From NCBI GenBank assembly GCA_919901855.1, contig CAKKQC010000022.1, positions 62,001 through 126,000 on the forward strand: a DNA stretch of 64,000 bases, written 5' to 3'. The translations under genes were made by a program, and so were the position numbers. This document shows positions 4,493-64,000 of this stretch, in pieces (within the stretch, counting starts at the first letter, position 1; every line of letters begins with the position of its first letter). Below the pieces are notes generated by a model that saw nothing but the letters and a program-made list of their open reading frames with translations, did no database searches and was not told the origin of the DNA. Origin of the DNA: a bacterium (GTDB taxonomy: Bacteria; Oederibacteriota; CAKKQC01).

Positions 4493-4564
4493 GCTGGCGT
4501 AGCTCAGGGGTAGAGCAAGCGCTTTGTAAGCGCTGGGTCGGGGGTTCGATTCCCTCCGCCAGCT
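4493..4564 (+). tRNA. tRNA-Thr (UGU)
   Basis: A 72-base cloverleaf. The acceptor arms are GCTGGCG and CGCCAGC, the anticodon stem AGCGC/GCGCT encloses the loop TTTGTAA (anticodon TGT), and the T arm reads GGGGGTTCGATTCCCTC. CCA is not encoded. A possible -10 (TAGACT, 4474-4479) lies just upstream. Confidence 0.95.
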
Positions 4565-16361: not shown

Positions 16362-16433
16362 CGGGGCGTAGCGCAGTGGTAGCGCGCCTGCCTTGGGCGC
16401 AGGAGGTCCCCGGTTCGAACCCGGGCGCCCCGA
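16362..16433 (+). tRNA. tRNA-Pro (UGG)
   Basis: A 72-base cloverleaf. Acceptor CGGGGCG/CGCCCCG, anticodon stem CCTGC/GCAGG with loop CTTGGGC (anticodon TGG), T arm CCCGGTTCGAACCCGGG. No encoded CCA. Confidence 0.95.
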
Positions 16434-16448
16434 GTGTTCGGTTTCCTT

Positions 16449-16521
16449 GCGGCCGTAGCTCAACTGGAAGAGCTGCTGGTTTCTACCCAGCGGGTTGGGG
16501 GTTCGAACCCCTCCGGCCGCG
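16449..16521 (+). tRNA. tRNA-Arg (UCU)
   Basis: A 73-base cloverleaf. Acceptor GCGGCCG/CGGCCGC, anticodon stem GCTGG/CCAGC with loop TTTCTAC (anticodon TCT), T arm GGGGGTTCGAACCCCTC. It lies 15 bases after tRNA-Pro. Confidence 0.93.
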
Positions 16522-16539
16522 CGTTCTTGTTAGGATGGT

Positions 16540-16657
16540 ATCCGCTCCGTAGCTGCGCCCGAGGCGGAGTGGCAGTAGCGAAGGGCTTCTTGTCCTTGGA
16601 GCGTCGCGAAAGCGACGCGACGGCGGAGCCGAAGGCTACGCCTGAGGCGGAGCGGAT
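16540..16657 (+). other. Structured, repeat-rich spacer between tRNA-Arg and tRNA-His
   Basis: This 118-base spacer is closed by a perfect 10-bp inverted repeat, ATCCGCTCCG (16540-16549) and CGGAGCGGAT (16648-16657). In its centre is a perfect 7-bp hairpin with a GAAA tetraloop, GCGTCGC-GAAA-GCGACGC (16601-16618). The word GAGGCGGAG occurs at both flanks (about 16561 and 16644). It does not fold as a tRNA and has no terminator T-run or plausible reading frame. It could be a processing signal, a small RNA or a repetitive palindromic element. Confidence 0.5.
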
Positions 16658-16685
16658 GTGCATATCGTTACGGGCCTGAGTAAAT

Positions 16686-16759
16686 GGTGAGTGTAGCTCA
16701 ATGGTCAGAGCGCCTGGCTGTGGCCCAGGAGGCTGTGGGTTCAATTCCCATCACTCACC
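16686..16759 (+). tRNA. tRNA-His (GUG)
   Basis: Acceptor GTGAGTG/CACTCAC plus the tRNA-His-specific extra G-1 (16686) facing C73 (16759). The anticodon stem CCTGG/CCAGG carries loop CTGTGGC (anticodon GTG). The next coding region begins 13 bases later. Confidence 0.95.
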
Positions 16760-17989: not shown

Positions 17990-19545
<1,556 letters not shown>

Positions 19546-19632
19546 CTAAGGACAATTGCAGTGTAGTATCGAAACTCTTTTGGGTGAGTAGTGTTGCTGC
19601 TTGGTTTTGAGCGAATCACTGGAGGAGTCGTT

Positions 19633-19706
<74 letters not shown>

Positions 19707-19726
19707 GTGACTCGGAAGGCCGATTC

Positions 19727-19799
19727 GGGGATGTAGCTCAATTGGTAGAGCGCCTGCTTTGCAAGCAGGAGGTCGCCGGTTCGACTCCGGCCATCTCCA
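19727..19799 (+). tRNA. tRNA-Ala (UGC) in the 16S-23S spacer
   Basis: A 73-base cloverleaf. Acceptor GGGGATG/CATCTCC with one G-U pair, anticodon stem CCTGC/GCAGG with loop TTTGCAA (anticodon TGC). It follows tRNA-Ile by 20 bases. Confidence 0.96.
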
Positions 19800-19833
19800 C
19801 GCCGTCTCCTCTTCAACTGGGAACGCGCGTGAC

Positions 19834-19860
19834 AGTTCTTTGACAATGACAGAGTTTTGT
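19834..19860 (+). promoter_or_regulatory. Second boxA-like element and 5' strand of the 23S processing stem
   Basis: AGTTCTTTGACAATG resembles the boxA element found before 23S in many operons. The adjacent TGACAGAGTTTTGT (19847-19860) is complementary to ACAAAGCTCTGTCA (22921-22934) just after 23S, and GGGGGTAGCCAAG pairs with CTTGGTTGCCCCC, giving a long stem enclosing 23S. Confidence 0.65.
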
Positions 19861-19866
19861 TGGGGG

Positions 19867-22915
<3,049 letters not shown>

Positions 22916-22944
22916 CCCCTACAAAGCTCTGTCATAAAACAACC

Positions 22945-22987
22945 CTGGAGTCCCGCGGAAGCCACGCATTGGCGAGCGGGACTCCAG
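22945..22987 (+). repeat. 12-bp inverted repeat in the 23S-5S spacer
   Basis: CTGGAGTCCCGC (22945-22956) and GCGGGACTCCAG (22976-22987) are perfect complements around a 19-base loop. The hairpin has no T-tract and lies 16 bases before 5S, so it is more likely a processing structure than a terminator. Confidence 0.6.
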
Positions 22988-23003
22988 AGGCTTGGTAGAA
23001 AGT

Positions 23004-23123
<120 letters not shown>

Positions 23124-53088: not shown

Positions 53089-54678
53089 ATGAACAACATC
53101 GGGTCCACGATTGCCAGGGTCGTCGGTGGATTCCTCGCCTTCGGGCTGCTCTTCGCGATGTCGTGCTCCGCCAGCACGCTGGTCTGGGGCGTGCCGCCCG
53201 CGTGGGGCCTGGTCGCGCTCTTCGTGCTCTCGCTGGGTCTTCTGGCCGGGTTCGGCCGGTTGGCGGGATGGCTCCCGAATGCGGAAGCGACGCCCCGCCA
53301 CGTCGTCCCGCTCCTCTGGCTCTGGCTGGCGACGGTCATCGTGCTGGTCGCAGTCGCCCAGTTCTGGAACGCGAGGATTGGCCGCCTCGAGGCCGCGCTC
53401 AAAGCCGAGGGGCTCCCCGCGTCCCTCGCCGAGTACGCCGAGGACGTGCCTGCCGCCAGGAACGGCGCGGCCGCGCTCGAGGCGTGGACGGCGACCTTCA
53501 CCCGGACCCGGGCGGGGGATCCCCGGGACTTCAATCCCGTCACCGACCTCTCGAAGGTGCTGGACGACGTCGACGGCGACTGGCAGGCGGAGGCGCCGGG
53601 CGACACCACGGGAGCGTGGGGCCCCGCGGCGGCCGCCGCGTTCACCGCGATCGAGCGGCGGTACGCGCGGTACATGGGCGGCGTGGACCGGGATCTCACC
53701 GCGATACTGGCCCGGTATCCCCGGCGGGTCGCCGTCGATTACCACGTGGTCGCGAAGGATCCGATGGGGCAGGATGCGCTCAGGGGACTCGGCGCGTTCG
53801 TGAGCGCGGAGCGCGGGTACCGCGTGCTGGCGGAGCATAGGGCGATGCAGGGGGACATGGCCGGCGCCTGGAAGGCGGTCCGCTCCCAGCTCCAGCTCAA
53901 CCGTCTGATCCTCCAGGATCACACCCTGATCGGGAGGATGATCGTGGTGGCGAACTCCGGGATCATCGCGAGAACCGCGACCACGATCATGCAGAACCGC
54001 CGCGACACCGTCCTGCCGCCCGATCTGGCAAAGGGCCTGGCCGCGATCATCGCGGAGCCGTGGGTGGCCGGCGGATTTGCGGGCGAGATCGCGTGGGGTC
54101 TCGACGTCCGGCGGCATTCGCGCTCGAAGTGGCTCGGCGGCAGCCTCCTGGGCAACCGCCGCCTCGGGTATCTCGTCGAGCGCAAGATGACGTTTCTCGG
54201 GTTCGCCGACGCCGCCCAGTACCACCAGATCACGCAGGTGCTGGAGCCGGCGGCGCGGGTGCGCGGCTGGACGCCCGACCTCCGGGGCGGCGAACTGGAC
54301 CGGTACGCGGTCAGTCGCGGGTGGGCGGCCGCGTGGGTGCCCTGGATCGACCTGCCGCGCTACCTCCAGCTCCTCCAGAAGGAGTACGAGGCGAAGACCC
54401 GGGTGCAGTTCGCACTCGTGGTTTCGGCGCTTCACCAGTACCGCGCGAAGACCGGGAAGTACCCGCCGGGACTCGCGCTGCTGGCGCCGCGGTATCTCGA
54501 CGCCGCGACCCTCGCGGACGTCTTCTCCGGGCGGGAGCTCGGCTATCAGCCCGGCGCCAAGGGCGCCGGGTATGAGCTATCGAGTGTCGGGCCGCTGGGC
54601 AACCGGAGCGACTCGCGGGCACGCATCCTGGCTGTGAAGGAACCGCTCGGCGTCAAGACGCCCGTCACAAAACCCTAG
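53089..54678 (+). CDS. Hypothetical membrane protein with GspG-like C-terminal segment
   Basis: 529 residues. Two or three hydrophobic segments near the N-terminus (GGFLAFGLLFAMSCSAS, LVALFVLSLGLLAGFG, LLWLWLATVIVLVAVAQF) are followed by a large helical extracytoplasmic domain. Residues about 440-520 (ALHQYRAKTGKYPPGLALLAP, DVFSGRELGYQPGAKG) resemble the C-terminal part of type II secretion pseudopilins (Y-x-x-x-G-x-YP, then DP/F-S-G-x-x-L-x-Y). No processing site is seen, so it is not a pilin. No family is recognised. It converges on, and overlaps by four bases, the large minus-strand gene. Confidence 0.65.
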   Translation: MNNIGSTIARVVGGFLAFGLLFAMSCSASTLVWGVPPAWGLVALFVLSLGLLAGFGRLAGWLPNAEATPRHVVPLLWLWLATVIVLVAVAQFWNARIGRLEAALKAEGLPASLAEYAEDVPAARNGAAALEAWTATFTRTRAGDPRDFNPVTDLSKVLDDVDGDWQAEAPGDTTGAWGPAAAAAFTAIERRYARYMGGVDRDLTAILARYPRRVAVDYHVVAKDPMGQDALRGLGAFVSAERGYRVLAEHRAMQGDMAGAWKAVRSQLQLNRLILQDHTLIGRMIVVANSGIIARTATTIMQNRRDTVLPPDLAKGLAAIIAEPWVAGGFAGEIAWGLDVRRHSRSKWLGGSLLGNRRLGYLVERKMTFLGFADAAQYHQITQVLEPAARVRGWTPDLRGGELDRYAVSRGWAAAWVPWIDLPRYLQLLQKEYEAKTRVQFALVVSALHQYRAKTGKYPPGLALLAPRYLDAATLADVFSGRELGYQPGAKGAGYELSSVGPLGNRSDSRARILAVKEPLGVKTPVTKP

Positions 54679-57600
54679 TTAATCCGGACGCGGAAGCAGG
54701 CGCACCCCGTGGTCTGGACGCCAGCCATCGGCATCGTCCACTTCAGCCACCGGGTGCCCGCCACGGGGTTGGCCGTCGTCCACGCGGTGGGCGGCGCCGC
54801 CTGGGCGAGGGTGGAGTAGGAGACGTTCATGGCCACGCCGTCCGTGCTCCCGCAGGCGAGCCCGGCCGAGGTCGCCTCGGGGATGAACGTGGTCCCCATG
54901 GGGATTGCATCGGTGACCACGAAGGTGAACGCGCTCGCCGAGGAGTAGTTGCTCCAGCAGACCTTGAACGTTACGGTATCCCCCGACGCCGCGATGGTGA
55001 AGCGGGGTTCCTTGAAGAGTTTGACGTCCGCCCCGACCACGTTCACCGTCGTCAGTCCGACGATCGAGCCGTCGAAGGCGTCCGAGGCCACGATGGTCTG
55101 GTTGCCCAGTTTCGTGAGGCTGACGTTGATGAAGAGGTGGACGCCGTTGTCCCAGGGGCTGGTGCCGCAGCTCGGCGGCCCGCTGGATTCCCAGACGTAG
55201 TTCCACCCGTCCATGGGGTTGCTCTCGATCTTGGCGGTCGCGTCCGTCGAGGTGAACGACGTGGTCCCGCAGTAGTCCGTCTTCGTGCCGCCGCCGTTGT
55301 CGATGACCGCGATCGTGATCCAGAAGGACTGCCCAGTGAAGACGGTCGGGGGCGCCATGATGACGTAGTGGACCCCGGTTCGGACGAACGGAGCGGTGAA
55401 GAACTTTTCCGTGACCTTGCCCTGGAGGTACTGGACCACGAGGTCGCCCTGGGCGCCGGCCGCCGCGAGCGTCATGCGGTAGTTGGTGCGGGTGCCGCCG
55501 GCCGGAACCGACAGAGCCGTGACGACGATGACCTGGTCCACGCCGTCCGTCGTGTACCGGGCCGACATCGTGCCGCCGCCCTGGGTGGCGCCGTTGATCT
55601 GCACCGCCATCCCGGTCTTGGGGGCGAAGACGTTGATATACAGCGTGTCGTCGTTCTTCCCGCCGGTCGCGTGGTGGAACCAGAAGTCGTCGCCCGCCTG
55701 CTGGCCGTCGGCCGAGTGGAGATTGGAAGCCCCGGCCCACTGGCTGTAGAGCTGGCCGCCGCTGTTCACCTGGATCGGCCCGCCAACGAACAGCTCGATC
55801 TTCCACGCGGTAGCGTAGGTCGAGGAGTTCATCGTCGCGTCGTATCCGCCGCCGTACACGTGCGCGTTTCCGTCAAAGAGCGGGAGGCCGGGGGCCAGTC
55901 CGGCGTTCACGCGGTCGACGGCCTTCGGCAACCAGATGCCCCTCGAGCCGGCCATCGTCGTCGGCCATGCATTGCTCGGCACCTTCGTGCTGATCGGCTG
56001 GTACTTGTAGATCCGGTAGGTGGCCGGAGACGCCACGGTCGTGTTGCCTACTATGCAGTTGGGGCTGAGCGTCGGGGCACAGATCGGGTAGAAGGTGCCG
56101 ACGTTGACCGGGGAGACCAGGTTCCCGTTGTCCCGGTTCGGAACCATGCCGCCGTGGTTGTCGAACGCCCCGCCGATGCCGGGCGCCCCAAAGGTGTGGT
56201 AGCCCTGGTAGATAATCATCTGGGTGTCCGAGGAGATGATCCGGAAGTGGAAAAGGTCGTCGATGGTGGCCGCGTAGGTGCCCTCGAGCGGCATCCAGAT
56301 GCTCTCCCCGGCGATGTTGCCGGTCTTCACGTAGTCCCAGCCGAGCATCGCGGGGTTCCACCTGAACAGGTGGACGGTCGTGTCCTGCGCGGCGTCGAAG
56401 ACGCCCATCGACGTGATGCTCGTGTTGACGATTGCGAGCCGGTCGCCGTGGCCGATGGTATTCAGCGCGATCTGGTCGGGCCGCATGCTCGTGTAGTGCA
56501 TGAACCCGCAGTAGTTCAGGCTGGTCGAGGGCAGATACGTGAACGAATCGTCGTTGGAGTCCGATCCTTCGGCCATGGTCAGCCAAAGGATGGGGGAGTT
56601 GGAAGTGACCTTGTAGAGGAAGTCGAACGGATAGGTTTCGCAGACCCCGAATCCGTCGTCCCAGATGCCGGGCCAGTAGACGGCCGGGGTCCGCTCGATC
56701 TTGCATCCCGCGTTCGAAAGCCCGCCGTCCGCGGCGAATCCGCCCACGCACGATCCCGCCAGGACGTTGATGGACGCGCTCTTGCCGCCCGTGAGCGCGA
56801 CGCCCGTGCCGTTGTACTCGAGCTTCCGGAACTCGAAGTTGGTGCTCATGTTCAGGGGGAAGAAGCTGATGAAGAACCCGGGACATGCCTTGTCGTCCGA
56901 GTTGCCGGCGTAGCTCGTGTACGAGAAGTACATGGTCCGGAGCACGATCATGGCCAGGTGCGTGAAGTTCGCGGGCTTGATCGACGGCCCCGTCCCGTCG
57001 GCTATCCCCGTCCGCCCCTGCTCGAGGAGGGAAATGCGGTTGATGCAGGTAGATCCCGCGGGGATCGTCGAGATGACCTTGGTCCGGTACCGGAGGGACA
57101 ACGTGAACCCGGGCGCCATGTCGAGCTTCCACGTCAGGATCGTCTTCCCCCCTCCGGTGATCACCTTGCCCGCCGCCGCGGCCGCGCACCCCGAGGGCGT
57201 CATCGTCCAGCCCGTGCAGGGGTCGTCGAGACCGTACCCCTGGCTCCAGATGTCGAGCTGGTCGGGAACCGTGTCCCAGATGCTCACGGCCCACCATGTC
57301 TTCTTGGTCGAGACGTTCTTGAGGAAGATCTCGTAGGTCATCTCGTCGTCGGGGACGCCGTATCCGCTGGCGAAAAGGATGTCGTTGCTCCCGACCTTCC
57401 AGAACAGGAACCGGGCGACGACGGTGTCGGTCGGCTCGCTGATCATGTTCGGGTTGCACGACGCATTGATGAAGACGGCCTGCGCGACGTTGTTGAGCCG
57501 CGAGTTCTCGATCGCGGCCGTGTCGCCGGACCCCGGCTCGAAGCTCTCGCCGTTGCCCCAGTCCACGGTGAGCTGGAACGTGACGGAACCGGTGGGGCCG

Positions 57601-58433
57601 CCCGTGGGCAGACCGCCCGGGACGGACCACCGCAGGTGCATGGGCGGGCCGGGATCGGGGTCCCAGCCCGGGTCCAGTGGCGGCGCCGCGCTGCCGAACA
57701 CATAGTGCGTGAAAGGCGGCATCGAGTCGAAGACCTGGATGCCCGTGATGTTGGTCGTGCCCGGCCGCCCGTAATAGACCGTGTACGTGAGCGTATCCCC
57801 GGGCGCGGCCCGGTCGAGGTTTCCCTCCTTGATCACGTACCGGATCATCTTCGAGGTCGAGTCGGTCGTTACGCCCCATGGCAGCGTGCCCCAGCAGTTG
57901 TCGGTCAGCCCGCCCTCGCCCAGGTCGCTGTAGGAGGGGCCGAGCTCGACCGTCGCGCCGTCCGTGGGACATGACGAGATGTCCGTGTAGAGGAACAGGG
58001 ACGGCCCACACAGGCACGCGGTGCAGGGATCCTGCGTGTAGGCGTAGCTGCCTGCCCAGGTCCAGGCGGGGAAGTTGTCCACGCCCACGGTCCATATGCC
58101 GGCGAACGTCATGGTGATGAGACCCGAGTTCGAGGAGCCGCACACCATCTGCCAGTAGAGGGCCTTGACGTCCCCCAGCGGGCCCCCGCTGGCCGTCCCG
58201 TAGTTGAAGATCGTGAGGCCGGTCATCGAGGCGGACGGGCACCACGAGCACGAGGTGTCGTCGCACTCGACGATCATGAACGAGGACTGGGGGACCTTGG
58301 TCCAGTTGGGGAAGATGTAGCTGTAGCTGCTGAAGGGCGCGACCGGGTTCGCGAGGATGTCATACTTGTAGTCGGCGACGGCGGGACCCGTAGCCCCCGC
58401 CAGGACCACGGCCGTGGCAAGAAGAAAGTTCAT
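54675..58433 (-). CDS. Very large secreted protein with DUF11-like modules
   Basis: About 1252 residues from ATG 58433, which begins a signal peptide (MNFLLATAVVLAGATGPAVA). At least three beta-sandwich modules look like DUF11 repeats (AAPGDTLTYTVYYGRPGTTN, DDEMTYEIFLKNVSTKKTWW, SGDTVTFKVCWSNYSSAS), each followed by a D-x-x-P-x-x-x-x-x motif (VFDSMPPFTHY, TDAIPMGTTF). The middle (about 420-1000) is of unknown fold and cysteine pairs suggest disulfides. Probably a surface or matrix protein; no anchor is seen at the C-terminus. The frame is open to TTG 58517 but the signal peptide favours 58433. Confidence 0.7.
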   Translation of the reverse strand: MNFLLATAVVLAGATGPAVADYKYDILANPVAPFSSYSYIFPNWTKVPQSSFMIVECDDTSCSWCPSASMTGLTIFNYGTASGGPLGDVKALYWQMVCGSSNSGLITMTFAGIWTVGVDNFPAWTWAGSYAYTQDPCTACLCGPSLFLYTDISSCPTDGATVELGPSYSDLGEGGLTDNCWGTLPWGVTTDSTSKMIRYVIKEGNLDRAAPGDTLTYTVYYGRPGTTNITGIQVFDSMPPFTHYVFGSAAPPLDPGWDPDPGPPMHLRWSVPGGLPTGGPTGSVTFQLTVDWGNGESFEPGSGDTAAIENSRLNNVAQAVFINASCNPNMISEPTDTVVARFLFWKVGSNDILFASGYGVPDDEMTYEIFLKNVSTKKTWWAVSIWDTVPDQLDIWSQGYGLDDPCTGWTMTPSGCAAAAAGKVITGGGKTILTWKLDMAPGFTLSLRYRTKVISTIPAGSTCINRISLLEQGRTGIADGTGPSIKPANFTHLAMIVLRTMYFSYTSYAGNSDDKACPGFFISFFPLNMSTNFEFRKLEYNGTGVALTGGKSASINVLAGSCVGGFAADGGLSNAGCKIERTPAVYWPGIWDDGFGVCETYPFDFLYKVTSNSPILWLTMAEGSDSNDDSFTYLPSTSLNYCGFMHYTSMRPDQIALNTIGHGDRLAIVNTSITSMGVFDAAQDTTVHLFRWNPAMLGWDYVKTGNIAGESIWMPLEGTYAATIDDLFHFRIISSDTQMIIYQGYHTFGAPGIGGAFDNHGGMVPNRDNGNLVSPVNVGTFYPICAPTLSPNCIVGNTTVASPATYRIYKYQPISTKVPSNAWPTTMAGSRGIWLPKAVDRVNAGLAPGLPLFDGNAHVYGGGYDATMNSSTYATAWKIELFVGGPIQVNSGGQLYSQWAGASNLHSADGQQAGDDFWFHHATGGKNDDTLYINVFAPKTGMAVQINGATQGGGTMSARYTTDGVDQVIVVTALSVPAGGTRTNYRMTLAAAGAQGDLVVQYLQGKVTEKFFTAPFVRTGVHYVIMAPPTVFTGQSFWITIAVIDNGGGTKTDYCGTTSFTSTDATAKIESNPMDGWNYVWESSGPPSCGTSPWDNGVHLFINVSLTKLGNQTIVASDAFDGSIVGLTTVNVVGADVKLFKEPRFTIAASGDTVTFKVCWSNYSSASAFTFVVTDAIPMGTTFIPEATSAGLACGSTDGVAMNVSYSTLAQAAPPTAWTTANPVAGTRWLKWTMPMAGVQTTGCACFRVRIN

Positions 58434-58516
58434 CCTTGCCGCAGGCGCGGTGCGACCTTCGGTTCTCACGACATCACCCAAGACTGGTCCGCCTTCTCCC
58501 CCCTCAGCTTGAGTCA

Positions 58517-58522
58517 ATCATA
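58517..58522 (-). promoter_or_regulatory. Possible -10 box for the large secreted protein
   Basis: Minus-strand TATGAT with no good -35. It lies back-to-back with the pyr promoter (TTGACA at 58541), so both divergent units start from one short region. Confidence 0.3.
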
Positions 58523-58540: not shown

Positions 58541-58569
58541 TTGACAGTGGGGTCGCCATGGTGTTGAAT
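58541..58569 (+). promoter_or_regulatory. Promoter of the pyrimidine operon
   Basis: A perfect TTGACA (58541-58546), a 17-base spacer and TTGAAT (58564-58569). Transcription would begin near 58576, giving a leader of about 125 bases before pyrR. Confidence 0.65.
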
Positions 58570-58600
58570 TCATCAGGCATCGAATCATGGGTCCTTTAAG

Positions 58601-58618
58601 CCGGACCGGCGAGTCCGG
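58601..58618 (+). promoter_or_regulatory. Leader hairpin upstream of the pyr attenuator
   Basis: CCGGAC-CGGCGA-GTCCGG, a 6-bp stem with a 6-base loop. Its GAGTCCGGCAAGGAG region is loosely like a PyrR-binding loop (UCC-x-G-x-GAGG) and overlaps the Shine-Dalgarno of the leader ORF. Its GTCCG could pair with CGGAC in the terminator's 5' flank (58661-58665). Confidence 0.4.
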
Positions 58619-58632
58619 CAAGGAGCAACGCG

Positions 58633-58704
58633 ATGAAGGCAGGACAACCCGAAATGCAGGCGGACCGCGGGCCGGGATGGCTCCGCGGTTTTTTTGCGGG
58701 CTGA
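58633..58704 (+). CDS. Leader peptide overlapping the pyr attenuator
   Basis: A 23-codon ORF starting ATG 58633, 7 bases after AAGGAG (58620-58625), and ending TGA 58702-58704. It reads MKAGQPEMQADRG then PGWLRGFFAG. Its codons span both arms of the intrinsic terminator and its T-run (Gly-Phe-Phe). Its stop overlaps the pyrR ATG (TGATG). This is the arrangement of the E. coli pyrBI leader, where close-following ribosomes block terminator formation when UTP is low. Whether it is translated is inferred from the Shine-Dalgarno and the coupled stop. Confidence 0.6.
   Translation: MKAGQPEMQADRGPGWLRGFFAG
58664..58695 (+). terminator. Intrinsic terminator/attenuator before pyrR
   Basis: Stem ACCGCGG (58664-58670) with CCGCGGT (58683-58689), extended inside by GCC/GGC around GGGAT with one bulged T, followed by an uninterrupted run of seven T (58689-58695). 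It lies between promoter and pyrR, so it can only serve as an attenuator for the operon. Confidence 0.8.
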
Positions 58705-59249
58705 TGGGCCCCCAAGGAGCCACCCAGAGCCTGGACGCCGCCGGAATCGACCGGGCGATGGTCCGGATCGCGCACGAGATCCACGAGAAGAACCCCGGCC
58801 GGCTGGCGGATCTGGTCCTCATCGGGATCCCGAAGCGGGGCGACACCCTCGCCCGCCGGATCGCGGCCGTCCTCGCCCGCGACCACGCGGTCGTCGCCCC
58901 CGTCGGCGTCCTGGACATCACCATGTACCGGGACGACATCGGGTCGCGCGCCAGCCTCCCCAAACCCTCGGACCTGCCCGGGAGCATCGACGGGAAGACG
59001 ATCGTGCTCGTGGATGACGTCCTCTACACGGGCCGCAGCGTCCGCGCCGCCATGGATGCCCTGATCGACTTCGGCCGGCCCAAGGCCATCCAGCTTGCCG
59101 TTCTCGTGGACCGCGGCCACCGGGAGCTCCCGATCCGCGCGGATTACGTCGGAAAGAACATCCCGACGGCCCCCGGCGCGAACGTGAAGGTCGAGTTGAA
59201 AGAGGACGACGGAGCCGAGCAGGTTCTCGTCGAGGAGGGGAACGGATGA
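58704..59249 (+). CDS. pyrR: PyrR bifunctional regulator / uracil phosphoribosyltransferase
   Basis: About 181 residues. The PRPP-binding loop is [37 protein letters not shown] and [22 protein letters not shown] in part are typical PyrR sequence. In Gram-positives PyrR binds pyr leader RNA when UMP is high and promotes termination. The ATG at 58704 is chosen because family sequence begins a few residues later and it overlaps the leader-peptide stop; the frame is open further upstream through the terminator. It has no Shine-Dalgarno of its own, which fits translational coupling. Confidence 0.92.
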
Positions 59250-60208
59250 CGACCGTGGATTCGCTCTCCGCCAAGGACCTCCTCGGAATCGAGCCGCTGT
59301 CGCGGGACGAGATCCAGCTCATCCTCGACACCGCCCGGACGCTCTCGGACGTCGCGAAGCATCCGATCAAGAAGGTGCCGGCCCTCCGGGGCCGCACGAT
59401 GGTCAACCTCTTCTACGAGGCGAGTACGCGCACGCGGACCTCGTTCGAGCTGGCCGCCGTCCGCCTTTCCGCCGACGTCGTCAACATCAACGTGCAGGCG
59501 AGCAGTGTCGTCAAGGGGGAGACCCTGCTCGATACCGCCCGGACGCTCGAGGCCATGACCGTGGACTTCATCGTCATGCGGCACGGCAGTTCGGGGGCGC
59601 CGCACATGCTCGCCAGGAACCTGAAGGCCTCGGTCATCAACGCCGGCGACGGCCAGCACGAGCATCCCACGCAGGCGCTCCTGGACCTCTACACGGTCCG
59701 GGAGAAGCTCGGGAGCATCGAGGGCAAGACGATCACGCTGATCGGGGACATCCAGCACAGCCGCGTGGCGCGGTCGGACCTGATCGCGTTCACGAAGATG
59801 GGGGCGAAGGTCAGGTTCTGCGGCCCGCCGACGCTCCTCTCCGCCGACTTCGGCGCGCTTGGCGCGGAGGTCCATCACGACCTCAAGAGCGCGCTGACCG
59901 GCGCGGACGTGGTCTACGTCCTGCGGCTCCAGTTCGAACGGCACCGGATGGGGCTGATGCCGTCGGTCAAGGCCTACACCCAGCAGTACGCGATCACGTC
60001 CGAGCGGGTGAAATGGGCGAAACCCGGCGCGCTGGTCATGCACCCGGGGCCCATGAACCGGGGGGTCGAGATCGCGCCCGAGGTGGCGGACGGCCCGACG
60101 TCCGTGATCGTGGACCAGGTCGCCAACGGAATCGCGGTGCGGATGGCGGTCCTGTACCTGCTTGAGGCCGGACGAACGAAGCGGGCCGCCGCCGGAGGTG
60201 TGTCGTGA
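59246..60208 (+). CDS. pyrB: Aspartate carbamoyltransferase catalytic subunit
   Basis: 320 residues. It makes carbamoyl-aspartate from carbamoyl phosphate and aspartate. Carbamoyl-phosphate site [45 protein letters not shown], and the aspartate loop [10 protein letters not shown] with [11 protein letters not shown]. No pyrI regulatory subunit is adjacent, as expected for a PyrR-controlled operon. The ATG overlaps pyrR by four bases. Confidence 0.96.
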
Positions 60209-61524
60209 CGAGTCGCGACGGCCGCACAACTGCACCGGGCAGCCTCCTGATTCGGGGCGGCCGCGTGATCGACCCGGCCACGGGGACCGACGGCGTCATG
60301 GACGTCCTGCTGTCGGACGGCAAGGTCGCGAAGACCGGGCCCGGACTCGACGCGGGCGGCGGGACGATCATCGAAGCCAAGGGTTTGGTCGTGGCCCCGG
60401 GATTCGTCGACGTACACGTCCACCTGCGCGAACCGGGGGAGGAGGGCAAGGAGACGATCGCGACTGGCACGCGCGCGGCCGCGATGGGCGGTGTGACGAC
60501 CGTGGTCGCGATGCCCAACACCGTCCCACCCATCGACACGCCCGCGATGATCGCGTACGTGCTCAGCCGGGCGGCGCAGGACGGCGTCGTGCGCGTCCGT
60601 CCGGCCGGATGCATCAGCCACGAGCGCAAGGGCGAAGTCATGGCGGACCTCGCGGGGCTCAAGGAGGCCGGGGCCGTCGCCTTCTCCGACGACGGGAACA
60701 GCGTCATGAACGCTCTCCTGGCCCGGCGGGCCATGATCAACACGCGGATCCTGAACGTGCCATACGTCGAGCACGCGGAGGACGCCTCGCTCGTCGACGC
60801 CGGCGTCATGCACGAGGGGCGGGTCTCGCTCCGGCTGGGCCTGGCGGGCCGCTCTCCGCTCGCGGAGGATCTCATCGTCGCCCGGGACCTCCTGCTGGCC
60901 GAAGCGACGGGGGCGCACCTGCACGTGGCGCACGTCAGTTCCCGGCGGAGCCTGGAGATGATCCGGGAGGCGAAGGCCAGGGGGGTCCCGGTGACCTGCG
61001 AAGCCACCCCGCATCACCTGGTCCTTACGGACGAGGCGGTGGGCGAGTTCGACACGTCGGCCAAGGTCCTGCCGCCCCTGCGCAGCGAGGAACACCGGCT
61101 GGCCCTGATCGCGGCGGTCAAGGACGGGACCGTGGACGTGATCGCCTCCGACCATGCGCCGCACGGGCCGCTCGAGAAGGAGGTCGAGTTCGCGCAGGCC
61201 GCCTCCGGGATGGTCGGGCTCGAAACCATGCTCCCGCTCGCCCTCGAGGTCCTCGTCCGGTCGGGCGCGATGGACCTTCCAGGGCTCGTCCGCCTGCTCT
61301 CATCGGCGCCGGCCCGGCTGTTCCATCTCGCCGGCGGCACGCTGGCGGCGGGATCGCCGGCGGACGTCACGGTATTCGATCCCGAGCTCGCGTGGACCGT
61401 GGACCCCCGGGCATTCTCGTCCAAGGGCAGGAACACGCCGTTCGCGGGCCGGAAGGTGCGGGGCCGGGCCGTGGACGTCATCGTGGGCGGACGCATCGTC
61501 GTCCGCGACGGCGGGCTGGTGTGA
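60205..61524 (+). CDS. pyrC: Dihydroorotase
   Basis: 439 residues, class I (long) dihydroorotase of the amidohydrolase superfamily. Zinc ligands: [11 protein letters not shown] (H-x-H), [10 protein letters not shown] and ASDHAPH with the catalytic aspartate. PNTVPPID and SSRRSLEMI also fit. It cyclises carbamoyl-aspartate to dihydroorotate. GTG start overlaps pyrB by four bases. Confidence 0.95.
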
Positions 61525-62719
61525 AGCCGGCCGCGCGCCGTCCCGCCACCCTGGCGCTCGAGGACGGATCGGTCTTCGGCGGGTTCGCGTTCGGCGCCGC
61601 GCGCGACACGTTCGGGGAGGTCGTATTCAACACGAGCCTCTCGGGCTACCAGGAGATCCTGACCGACCCCTCCTACAAGGGGCAGATGGTGGCCATGACC
61701 GTCTCCCACGTCGGCAACTACGGGATCAACCCCGAGGACGGCGAGTCGGCCGGGATCCACGTCGACGGGTTCATCGTGCGGGAGGCGTGCGCGGACCCCA
61801 GCAACTGGCGGAGCCGCGAGAGCCTGCACGCGTACCTCGCGCGGCACGGGGTCACGGGCATCGAGGGGGTCGATACCCGCGCGCTCGTCATCCTGCTCCG
61901 GACGAAGGGCGCCCTGCGCGGCGTGATCGGCACGGGGAAGACCTCGCCGACGGCTCTCGTCAAGCGGGCGAAGGCCTCGCCCCGGATCGAGGACCGGGAC
62001 CTCGTGCAGGAAGTGTCGTGCGGCAAGCCGTACGAATGGACGGAACCCTTTGCCGATCCGGTCGCCCCCGATCCGTGGACCCCGCCCGGTCATGACGCCC
62101 TCCACGCCGTCGTCGTGGACTGCGGCGTGAAGCGCAACATCCTCCGCTCCCTCGTGAGCCGGGGCTGTCGCGTCACCGTCGTGCCCGCGTTCACGCCCGC
62201 GGCCGGGATCCTCGCGCTCCAGCCCGACGGCGTCGTCTTCTCGAACGGCCCCGGCGACCCCGACCGCCTGCCGCAGATGGTTCAGGTCGTGCGTGACTGC
62301 ATCGGCAAGGTGCCGGTATTCGGAATCTGTCTCGGCCACCAGCTCGTCGGCAAGGCGCTCGGGGGAAGGATCTTCAAGTTGAGGTTCGGTCACCACGGAG
62401 GCAATCACCCGGTCCGGCACGAGCGGACGGGGAAGGTGGCGATCACGGCCCAGAACCACAACTTCGCGGTGGATCCCAAGAACCTGGTCCCCGAGGCCGA
62501 GGTCACCCATCTCAACCTCAACGACAGGACGGTCGAGGGTCTGCGTCATCGCACCTTGCCGGTCTTCTCCGTCCAGTACCACCCCGAAGCGGCGCCCGGG
62601 CCGCACGATTCCCGGTCGCTCTTCAAGGACTTCGTGACGATGATGCAGGGCCTCCGGAGGTCCCGGAGTTCCGGCTTCCGCCGTAACTCCGACGGCCTCC
62701 CGCAGCGGGAGGCTCCCTG

Positions 62720-62720
<1 letters not shown>
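61521..62720 (+). CDS. carA: Carbamoyl-phosphate synthase small chain
   Basis: About 399 residues. N-terminal small-subunit domain ([43 protein letters not shown]) and C-terminal class I glutamine amidotransferase with nucleophile Cys270 in [16 protein letters not shown] and the catalytic His in [14 protein letters not shown]. It supplies ammonia from glutamine to CarB. The GTG at 61521 overlaps the pyrC stop. The stop overlaps the carB ATG (TGATG). Confidence 0.96.

Positions 62721-64000
<1,280 letters not shown>

Follow-up and report, generated by a model that had tools for sequence, protein, structure and literature searches.

The window, i.e., the whole 64,000-nt stretch of DNA that was analyzed, ends in a pyr operon on the plus strand with the gene order pyrR-pyrB-pyrC-carA-carB, in which neighboring genes overlap by one to four bases each. 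The first gene, pyrR (58704-59249, 181 aa), matches model NF003549 with 214.1 bits (cut-off 138), four sister PyrR models staying below their cut-offs, and the best natural match of its product among solved structures is 1ufr, a pyr mRNA-binding attenuation protein. It is followed by pyrB for aspartate carbamoyltransferase (59246-60208; NF002032, 402.1 bits, cut-off 263), pyrC for dihydroorotase (60205-61524; TIGR00857, 428.5 bits, cut-off 279.05), carA for the small chain of carbamoyl-phosphate synthase (61521-62720; PF00988 and PF00117), of which the GTG start overlaps the pyrC stop, and carB for the large chain of the same enzyme (62720-64000; NF003671, 763 bits, cut-off 599), which continues beyond the window end. 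A script search of the window found no Shine-Dalgarno sequence for pyrR; a further in-frame pyrR ATG lies 27 nt upstream, within the terminator described below. Elsewhere in the window, an rRNA operon (16S, two tRNAs, 23S, 5S) occupies 17990-23123, more tRNAs are located at 4493 and 16362-16759, and a divergent frame of 1280 residues with one DUF11 match (PF01345) runs on the minus strand at 54675-58517, its start adjoining the pyr promoter.

The leader upstream of pyrR was reread letter by letter, and the elements that a first-pass annotation had listed there, i.e., a TTGACA-17-TTGAAT promoter, an AAGGAG, a 23-codon open reading frame (ORF), a GC-rich hairpin with seven T inside that ORF, and a TGA/ATG overlap, are all in place on the plus strand. 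The promoter consists of TTGACA (58541-58546), a 17-nt spacer, and TTGAAT (58564-58569), and the pyr transcript is predicted to start around position 58576. A promoter scanner listed none at the pyr leader; it demands an A at the second position of the -10 element, which TTGAAT does not have. What had been noted as a 6-bp hairpin is a hairpin indeed, but a larger one, with a 5-bp lower stem (TCCTT, 58592-58596, paired with AAGGA, 58620-58624), a TAA bulge, and a 7-bp upper stem (GCCGGAC, 58600-58606, paired with GTCCGGC, 58613-58619) that is closed by the hexaloop CGGCGA (58607-58612). PyrR loops have the consensus hexaloop CNGNGA, which the loop in the window fits. A weak resemblance to such a loop had been placed at 58609-58625; the predicted PyrR-binding hairpin is complete and spans 58592-58624 instead. 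The Shine-Dalgarno sequence of the leader ORF, AAGGAG (58620-58625), lies inside the 3' strand of this hairpin, and the 23 codons of the ORF (MKAGQPEMQADRGPGWLRGFFAG) run from the ATG at 58633 to 58704. Its TGA (58702-58704) shares one base with the ATG of pyrR (58704-58706), which gives TGATG. The intrinsic terminator inside the ORF (58664-58695) is made up of a 7-bp stem (ACCGCGG, 58664-58670, paired with CCGCGGT, 58683-58689) and seven T (58689-58695); a terminator scan found one terminator here in a slightly shifted register (58669-58683), where 0.6 was expected.

Four lines of evidence underlie the prediction of a PyrR-binding hairpin, namely, the fold, covariation, a single exact match in the genome, and an Rfam alignment that stays below the gathering score. 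The leader aligns end to end, including the terminator, with the Rfam PyrR family RF00515 at 31.4 bits (E 0.017, in 501 bases), for a gathering score of 54, and it was listed neither in a gathering-threshold scan of the window nor in a whole-genome search with E up to 0.001. Across the phylum of the window, 1 of 40 genomes passes the RF00515 cut-off and 25 of 40 reach E 0.001, and in 34 of the same 40 the hairpin can be read upstream of pyrR; a broader model would help annotation. The loop pattern has one exact match in the 4.68-Mb genome, at the pyr leader. When two mismatches were allowed, 7 further matches appeared versus 13 for a reversed control, so this pattern search of the 4.68 Mb found no other PyrR sites above chance. 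The folding energy of the leader (z -2.0, with 6 of 200 shuffles as good) is by itself modest evidence for structure; the real evidence is conservation in relatives.

This conservation was assessed in 45 genomes of the window's phylum, 39 of which contain a PyrR match. From 38 genomes, 39 pyrR upstream regions were collected, two of them from G001, with G020 (partial matches) left out; L040 duplicates L001, and the leader of G031 ends at a contig edge. The PyrR hairpin is present in all 38 readable pyrR leaders. Upper-stem pairs are standard in 239 of 266 cells (38 leaders) versus 132 and 123 when the partners were slid by one base, and versus a mean of 189 and a maximum of 205 in 500 shuffles of the partners among sequences. 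The four lower-stem pairs around the Shine-Dalgarno sequence are standard in 38 of 38 leaders, with T-A in place of C-G at one pair in two of them; in the row of G002, the script had read GAGG as AAGG for this count, the true one lying 3 nt further on. Alignment with relatives, as envisaged in the first-pass annotation, thus bore out hairpin covariation and also the terminator (a stem with a T run was found by script in 33 of 37 phylum leaders), whereas the conserved leader codons that had been envisaged along with them were not seen. Of the 38 phylum leaders, 37 have a TTGAC box no more than 75 nt ahead of the loop, compared with 5 when the opposite strand of these stretches is read, which makes a transcription start shortly upstream of the loop the most likely one. 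A main transcript that starts downstream of 58695, which had been named as an observation that would count against leader-based control, is therefore unlikely.

Leader ORFs were counted in 37 phylum leaders, with L039 set apart and read singly. An ATG follows 5-16 nt past the AAGG of the hairpin in 25 of the 37, and in one of these, L002, that ATG is the pyrR start itself. The frames so opened end within -15 to +20 nt of the pyrR start in 18 of 25 cases versus 2.2 expected from dinucleotide shuffles, a count that could have been favored toward the leader-ORF reading, since pyrR starts in the phylum were hand-picked from in-frame candidates after the stop distances had already been seen, and that is inflated by kinship among leaders, as are the Deinococcota counts given below. 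The terminator is passed by 21 of 25 frames (10.7 expected from shuffles of the phylum leaders), and 7 of 25, L002 among them, end outside the interval. In L039, from G001 (the family of the window, another genus), a 23-codon ORF with an internal terminator and a TGATG overlap recurs with an unrelated peptide. Both in the window and in L039, the terminator leaves hardly any space for a pyrR Shine-Dalgarno sequence, and none is seen in either.

Retention of the terminator with loss of the leader ATG, which had also been named beforehand as counter-evidence, was found in 12 of the 37 phylum leaders (two each in families f4 and f5, one each in f12 and f13, and three each in f15 and f16), the ATG being kept in the other 25. 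In those of the 12 that belong to f12, f13, f15, and f16, a longer helix of 7-10 bp that resembles an antiterminator is present instead. In G011 and G012 (f4) and in G014 and G017 (f5), the loop and the terminator are present, no ATG occurs 5-16 nt after the loop, and the helix measures only 4-7 bp. G014 has an ATG 20 nt past the AAGG, just beyond the 5-16 nt limit. In L016 (G016) and L035 (G014), the frame behind the loop crosses the terminator and enters pyrR in frame without a stop, so pyrR might also carry an N-terminal extension there. L002 (G001, the family of the window) has the loop directly ahead of a 505-residue PyrR-PyrB fusion (from about position 1489) and no terminator, and its owner is uncertain because the genome bin has 6% contamination.

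A second sample, reached via a named Thermus locus, comprised 101 Deinococcota genomes, 93 of which have a match. Seventy loci were read, and with L154 and L168 dropped for their short upstream regions, 68 leaders remained: 57 with a separate leader ORF, 7 in which the loop abuts the pyrR start, and 4 without a recognized loop. In the latter (L177, L182, L183, and L191), no loop was recognized in the 330 nt upstream of pyrR, and these genes may be operon-internal or have diverged loops. The pyrR start was assigned here by a fixed rule (best Shine-Dalgarno sequence) and the interval was preset from the phylum count; six Deinococcota leaders were known beforehand from the named loci, and some of them recur among the 70. 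The leader ORF ends within -15 to +20 in 47 of 57 leaders (8.8 in shuffles; the two alternative frames give 8 and 7) and outside in 10, and after removal of near-identical leaders the interval holds 33 of 39 (5.7 in shuffles; 3 and 6 in the other frames). The commonest stops are at +11 (20 leaders) and at +4 (19 leaders), and as many of the +11 stops fall in an inherited stretch of pyrR, such rows are not independent.

Of 80 named loci, 47 show the loop pattern; a suitably spaced start codon follows it in 22 of them and is lacking in 25, which are mostly Bacillota. Seven of the 22 leader ORFs end in the interval, namely, those of four Thermaceae (Thermus altitudinis, Meiothermus rufus, Meiothermus taiwanensis, and a MAG), two Dehalococcoidia MAGs, and one Omnitrophota MAG. 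In T. altitudinis, Thermus tenuipuniceus, M. rufus, and M. taiwanensis, the leader ORF crosses the terminator, and in three of these four it ends in the interval; T. tenuipuniceus (+25) is a near miss, as are a Truepera (-17) and a Roseiflexaceae (+22) locus. One of four Omnitrophota leader ORFs ends in the interval, the other three at -41, -61, and -139, and all 8 Bacillota ORFs with a suitably spaced start codon end outside it.

The leader peptide behaves differently from the frame that encodes it. The peptides of the window and L039 have 23 codons each and different residues, and the second codon encodes Lys in 29 of 89 ORFs. In 8 close pairs of leaders, codon changes number 21, 16, and 15 at positions 1, 2, and 3, and 10 of 52 are synonymous; these pairs have no third-position bias and hence do not show the signature that coding sequence normally leaves. 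The ideas of a peptide product and of control codons were therefore rejected, as an unconserved peptide and an even spread of changes over codon positions argue against both a functional peptide and amino-acid sensing. Many relatives do keep the start codon, a frame that stays open across the terminator, and the stop position at pyrR. The simplest reading is that the act of translation is the signal and that the sequence of the peptide is immaterial.

The locus is probably a PyrR-controlled transcription attenuator of pyrR-pyrB-pyrC-carA-carB that is coupled to leader translation, of the kind proposed for Thermus. Sequence and comparison establish the leader anatomy, the covariation of the hairpin, and the conserved start, frame, and stop position; beyond these, we infer that PyrR binds in a UMP-dependent manner, that transcription terminates in the leader unless a ribosome brings about read-through, that translation restarts, and that no antiterminator exists. 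When UMP/UTP are plentiful, PyrR-UMP would bind and lock the hairpin at 58592-58624 and the AAGGAG in its 3' strand would be hidden, leaving the 23-codon leader untranslated, upon which the terminator at 58664-58695 would form and the operon would be off. When pyrimidines are short, PyrR would depart, and a ribosome would open the hairpin and translate the leader, covering the 5' arm of the terminator and allowing RNA polymerase to read through. The same ribosome would stop at the TGA, one base into the ATG of pyrR, and would then restart there. As pyrR has no evident Shine-Dalgarno sequence, leader translation should govern both its transcription and its translation. The earlier claim that the leader must be translated for the terminator to be passed and also for pyrR to be started is thus probably correct, start, frame, and stop position being kept in many relatives. 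According to folding, the hairpin of the window alone hides the Shine-Dalgarno sequence (P free 0.18), so PyrR need not add much, and for two leader-type loci of f10, in G024 and G029, folding predicts no hairpin at all (P 0.00). The general idea that a ribosome can restart when a leader stop lies close to the next start codon has been published (PMC4833913). Among the matches listed in the literature, titles and abstract openings contain no description of a PyrR leader ORF, and one may nevertheless exist in print.

The layout itself is not first seen here, as a proposal for Thermus ZO5 precedes it. Van de Casteele et al. reportedly found pyrR first in the cluster of that strain in 1997 and are said to have proposed that a translating ribosome, not an antiterminator, prevents the terminator from forming. 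The Thermus leaders read here (ZO5 itself not among them) resemble that of the window in having the loop, a Shine-Dalgarno sequence in the 3' strand of the loop, and an ORF that runs through the terminator to or near the pyrR start. In the window, the stop overlaps pyrR by one base and pyrR has no evident Shine-Dalgarno sequence, whereas most Thermus-like ORFs stop 11 nt into a pyrR that has its own; the lack of an evident pyrR Shine-Dalgarno sequence is a minor difference. The leader would be best explained by a single sensor, PyrR, that acts through leader translation in an arrangement common to Thermus and Meiothermus.

Attenuation of the Bacillus type, in which PyrR would stabilize an anti-antiterminator, the antiterminator would pair the 3' strand of the hairpin with the 5' side of the terminator, and the leader ORF would be incidental, is considered unlikely for the window. 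The pyr attenuators of Bacillus subtilis (RF00515) share with the window a PyrR-binding hairpin with a CNGNGA hexaloop and a terminator, along with the full-length alignment; the window departs from them in its leader ORF, in a score below gathering, and in an antiterminator that folding, a weak test, does not favor. An antiterminator helix is possible in all 11 leaders of f12, f13, f15, and f16 (dG -13.8 to -19.8, longest uninterrupted helix 7-10 bp), 8 of which have no leader ATG, and a duplex of -18.0 is possible in the window as well. However, the latter is no better than in shuffled sequence (z -0.2), in tests that discriminate poorly, z in the 11 leaders ranging from 1.5 to -2.2. The longest uninterrupted helix in the window has 5 bp, yet three leader-type loci of f3 reach 7, 8, and 11 bp. 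Likewise, the hairpin of the window keeps P 0.93 in a transcript that ends before the 3' arm of the terminator, but P is at least 0.72 in 7 of the 11 f12/f13/f15/f16 leaders too. Neither the duplex z, nor the transcript-cut fold, nor the helix length separates the regulatory modes cleanly, and these tests weakly disfavor an antiterminator in the window; the conserved leader ORF, moreover, would go unexplained by it.

Purely translational control, in which PyrR hides a Shine-Dalgarno sequence and the hairpin further on does not act as a terminator, is very unlikely here. Fields and Switzer reportedly described PyrR-dependent translational repression in Mycobacterium smegmatis in 2007, where the occluded Shine-Dalgarno sequence is said to be that of the first structural gene. 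As in the window, the 3' strand of the M. smegmatis loop reportedly contains a Shine-Dalgarno sequence that PyrR would hide, and a loop placed directly at the pyrR start with no leader ORF does occur in L002 (the bin with 6% contamination) and in the 7 of 68 Deinococcota leaders mentioned above. The hidden Shine-Dalgarno sequence of the window, in contrast, belongs to the leader ORF and not to pyrR, and it is followed by a terminator, i.e., the GC-rich stem with seven T between the loop and pyrR, of which most phylum leaders have a counterpart.

The first-pass annotation had also regarded the leader as a possible hybrid with the E. coli pyrBI system, in which coupling of the ribosome is set by UTP-sensitive pausing within a U-rich stretch and a ribosome on the leader ORF blocks the terminator. 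Sensing by UTP-limited pausing of RNA polymerase, with or without PyrR, would fit a leader ORF that, as in pyrBI, crosses the terminator and stops where the first gene begins, with a ribosome that keeps the terminator from forming, but it is hardly credible in the window, where a search of the leader found no U-rich pause tract ahead of the terminator (58626-58665 has only 2 U, both within ATG codons), a full PyrR hairpin covers the leader Shine-Dalgarno sequence instead, the gene order differs, and PyrR is encoded in the operon. The U fraction of other leader-type leaders ranges from 0.03 to 0.39, so that the U-poor argument against pausing is valid for the window only. One half of the hybrid idea hence stands: comparison supports leader translation, whereas the pyrBI-style half fails for want of a pause tract and a conserved peptide, the evident sensor being PyrR, encoded by the adjacent gene.

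It is reasonably likely that leader translation gated by PyrR is a third general output of the PyrR loop and not an oddity of Thermus, being kept across Deinococcota and the phylum of the window as well as in single Chloroflexota and Omnitrophota genomes. It would form a double gate of read-through and pyrR restart, and lineages may swap an antiterminator, a leader ORF, or direct occlusion on one conserved RNA-protein sensor. Within the phylum of the window, there are loci of all three output kinds: besides leader ORFs, a Bacillus-like antiterminator seems to operate in some families and direct occlusion of pyrR in one locus, the one in the bin with 6% contamination. With leaders from two phyla, the comparison backs a mechanism that reportedly rested on the 1997 proposal, and it suggests that one RNA-protein sensor has been wired to different outputs in related bacteria.
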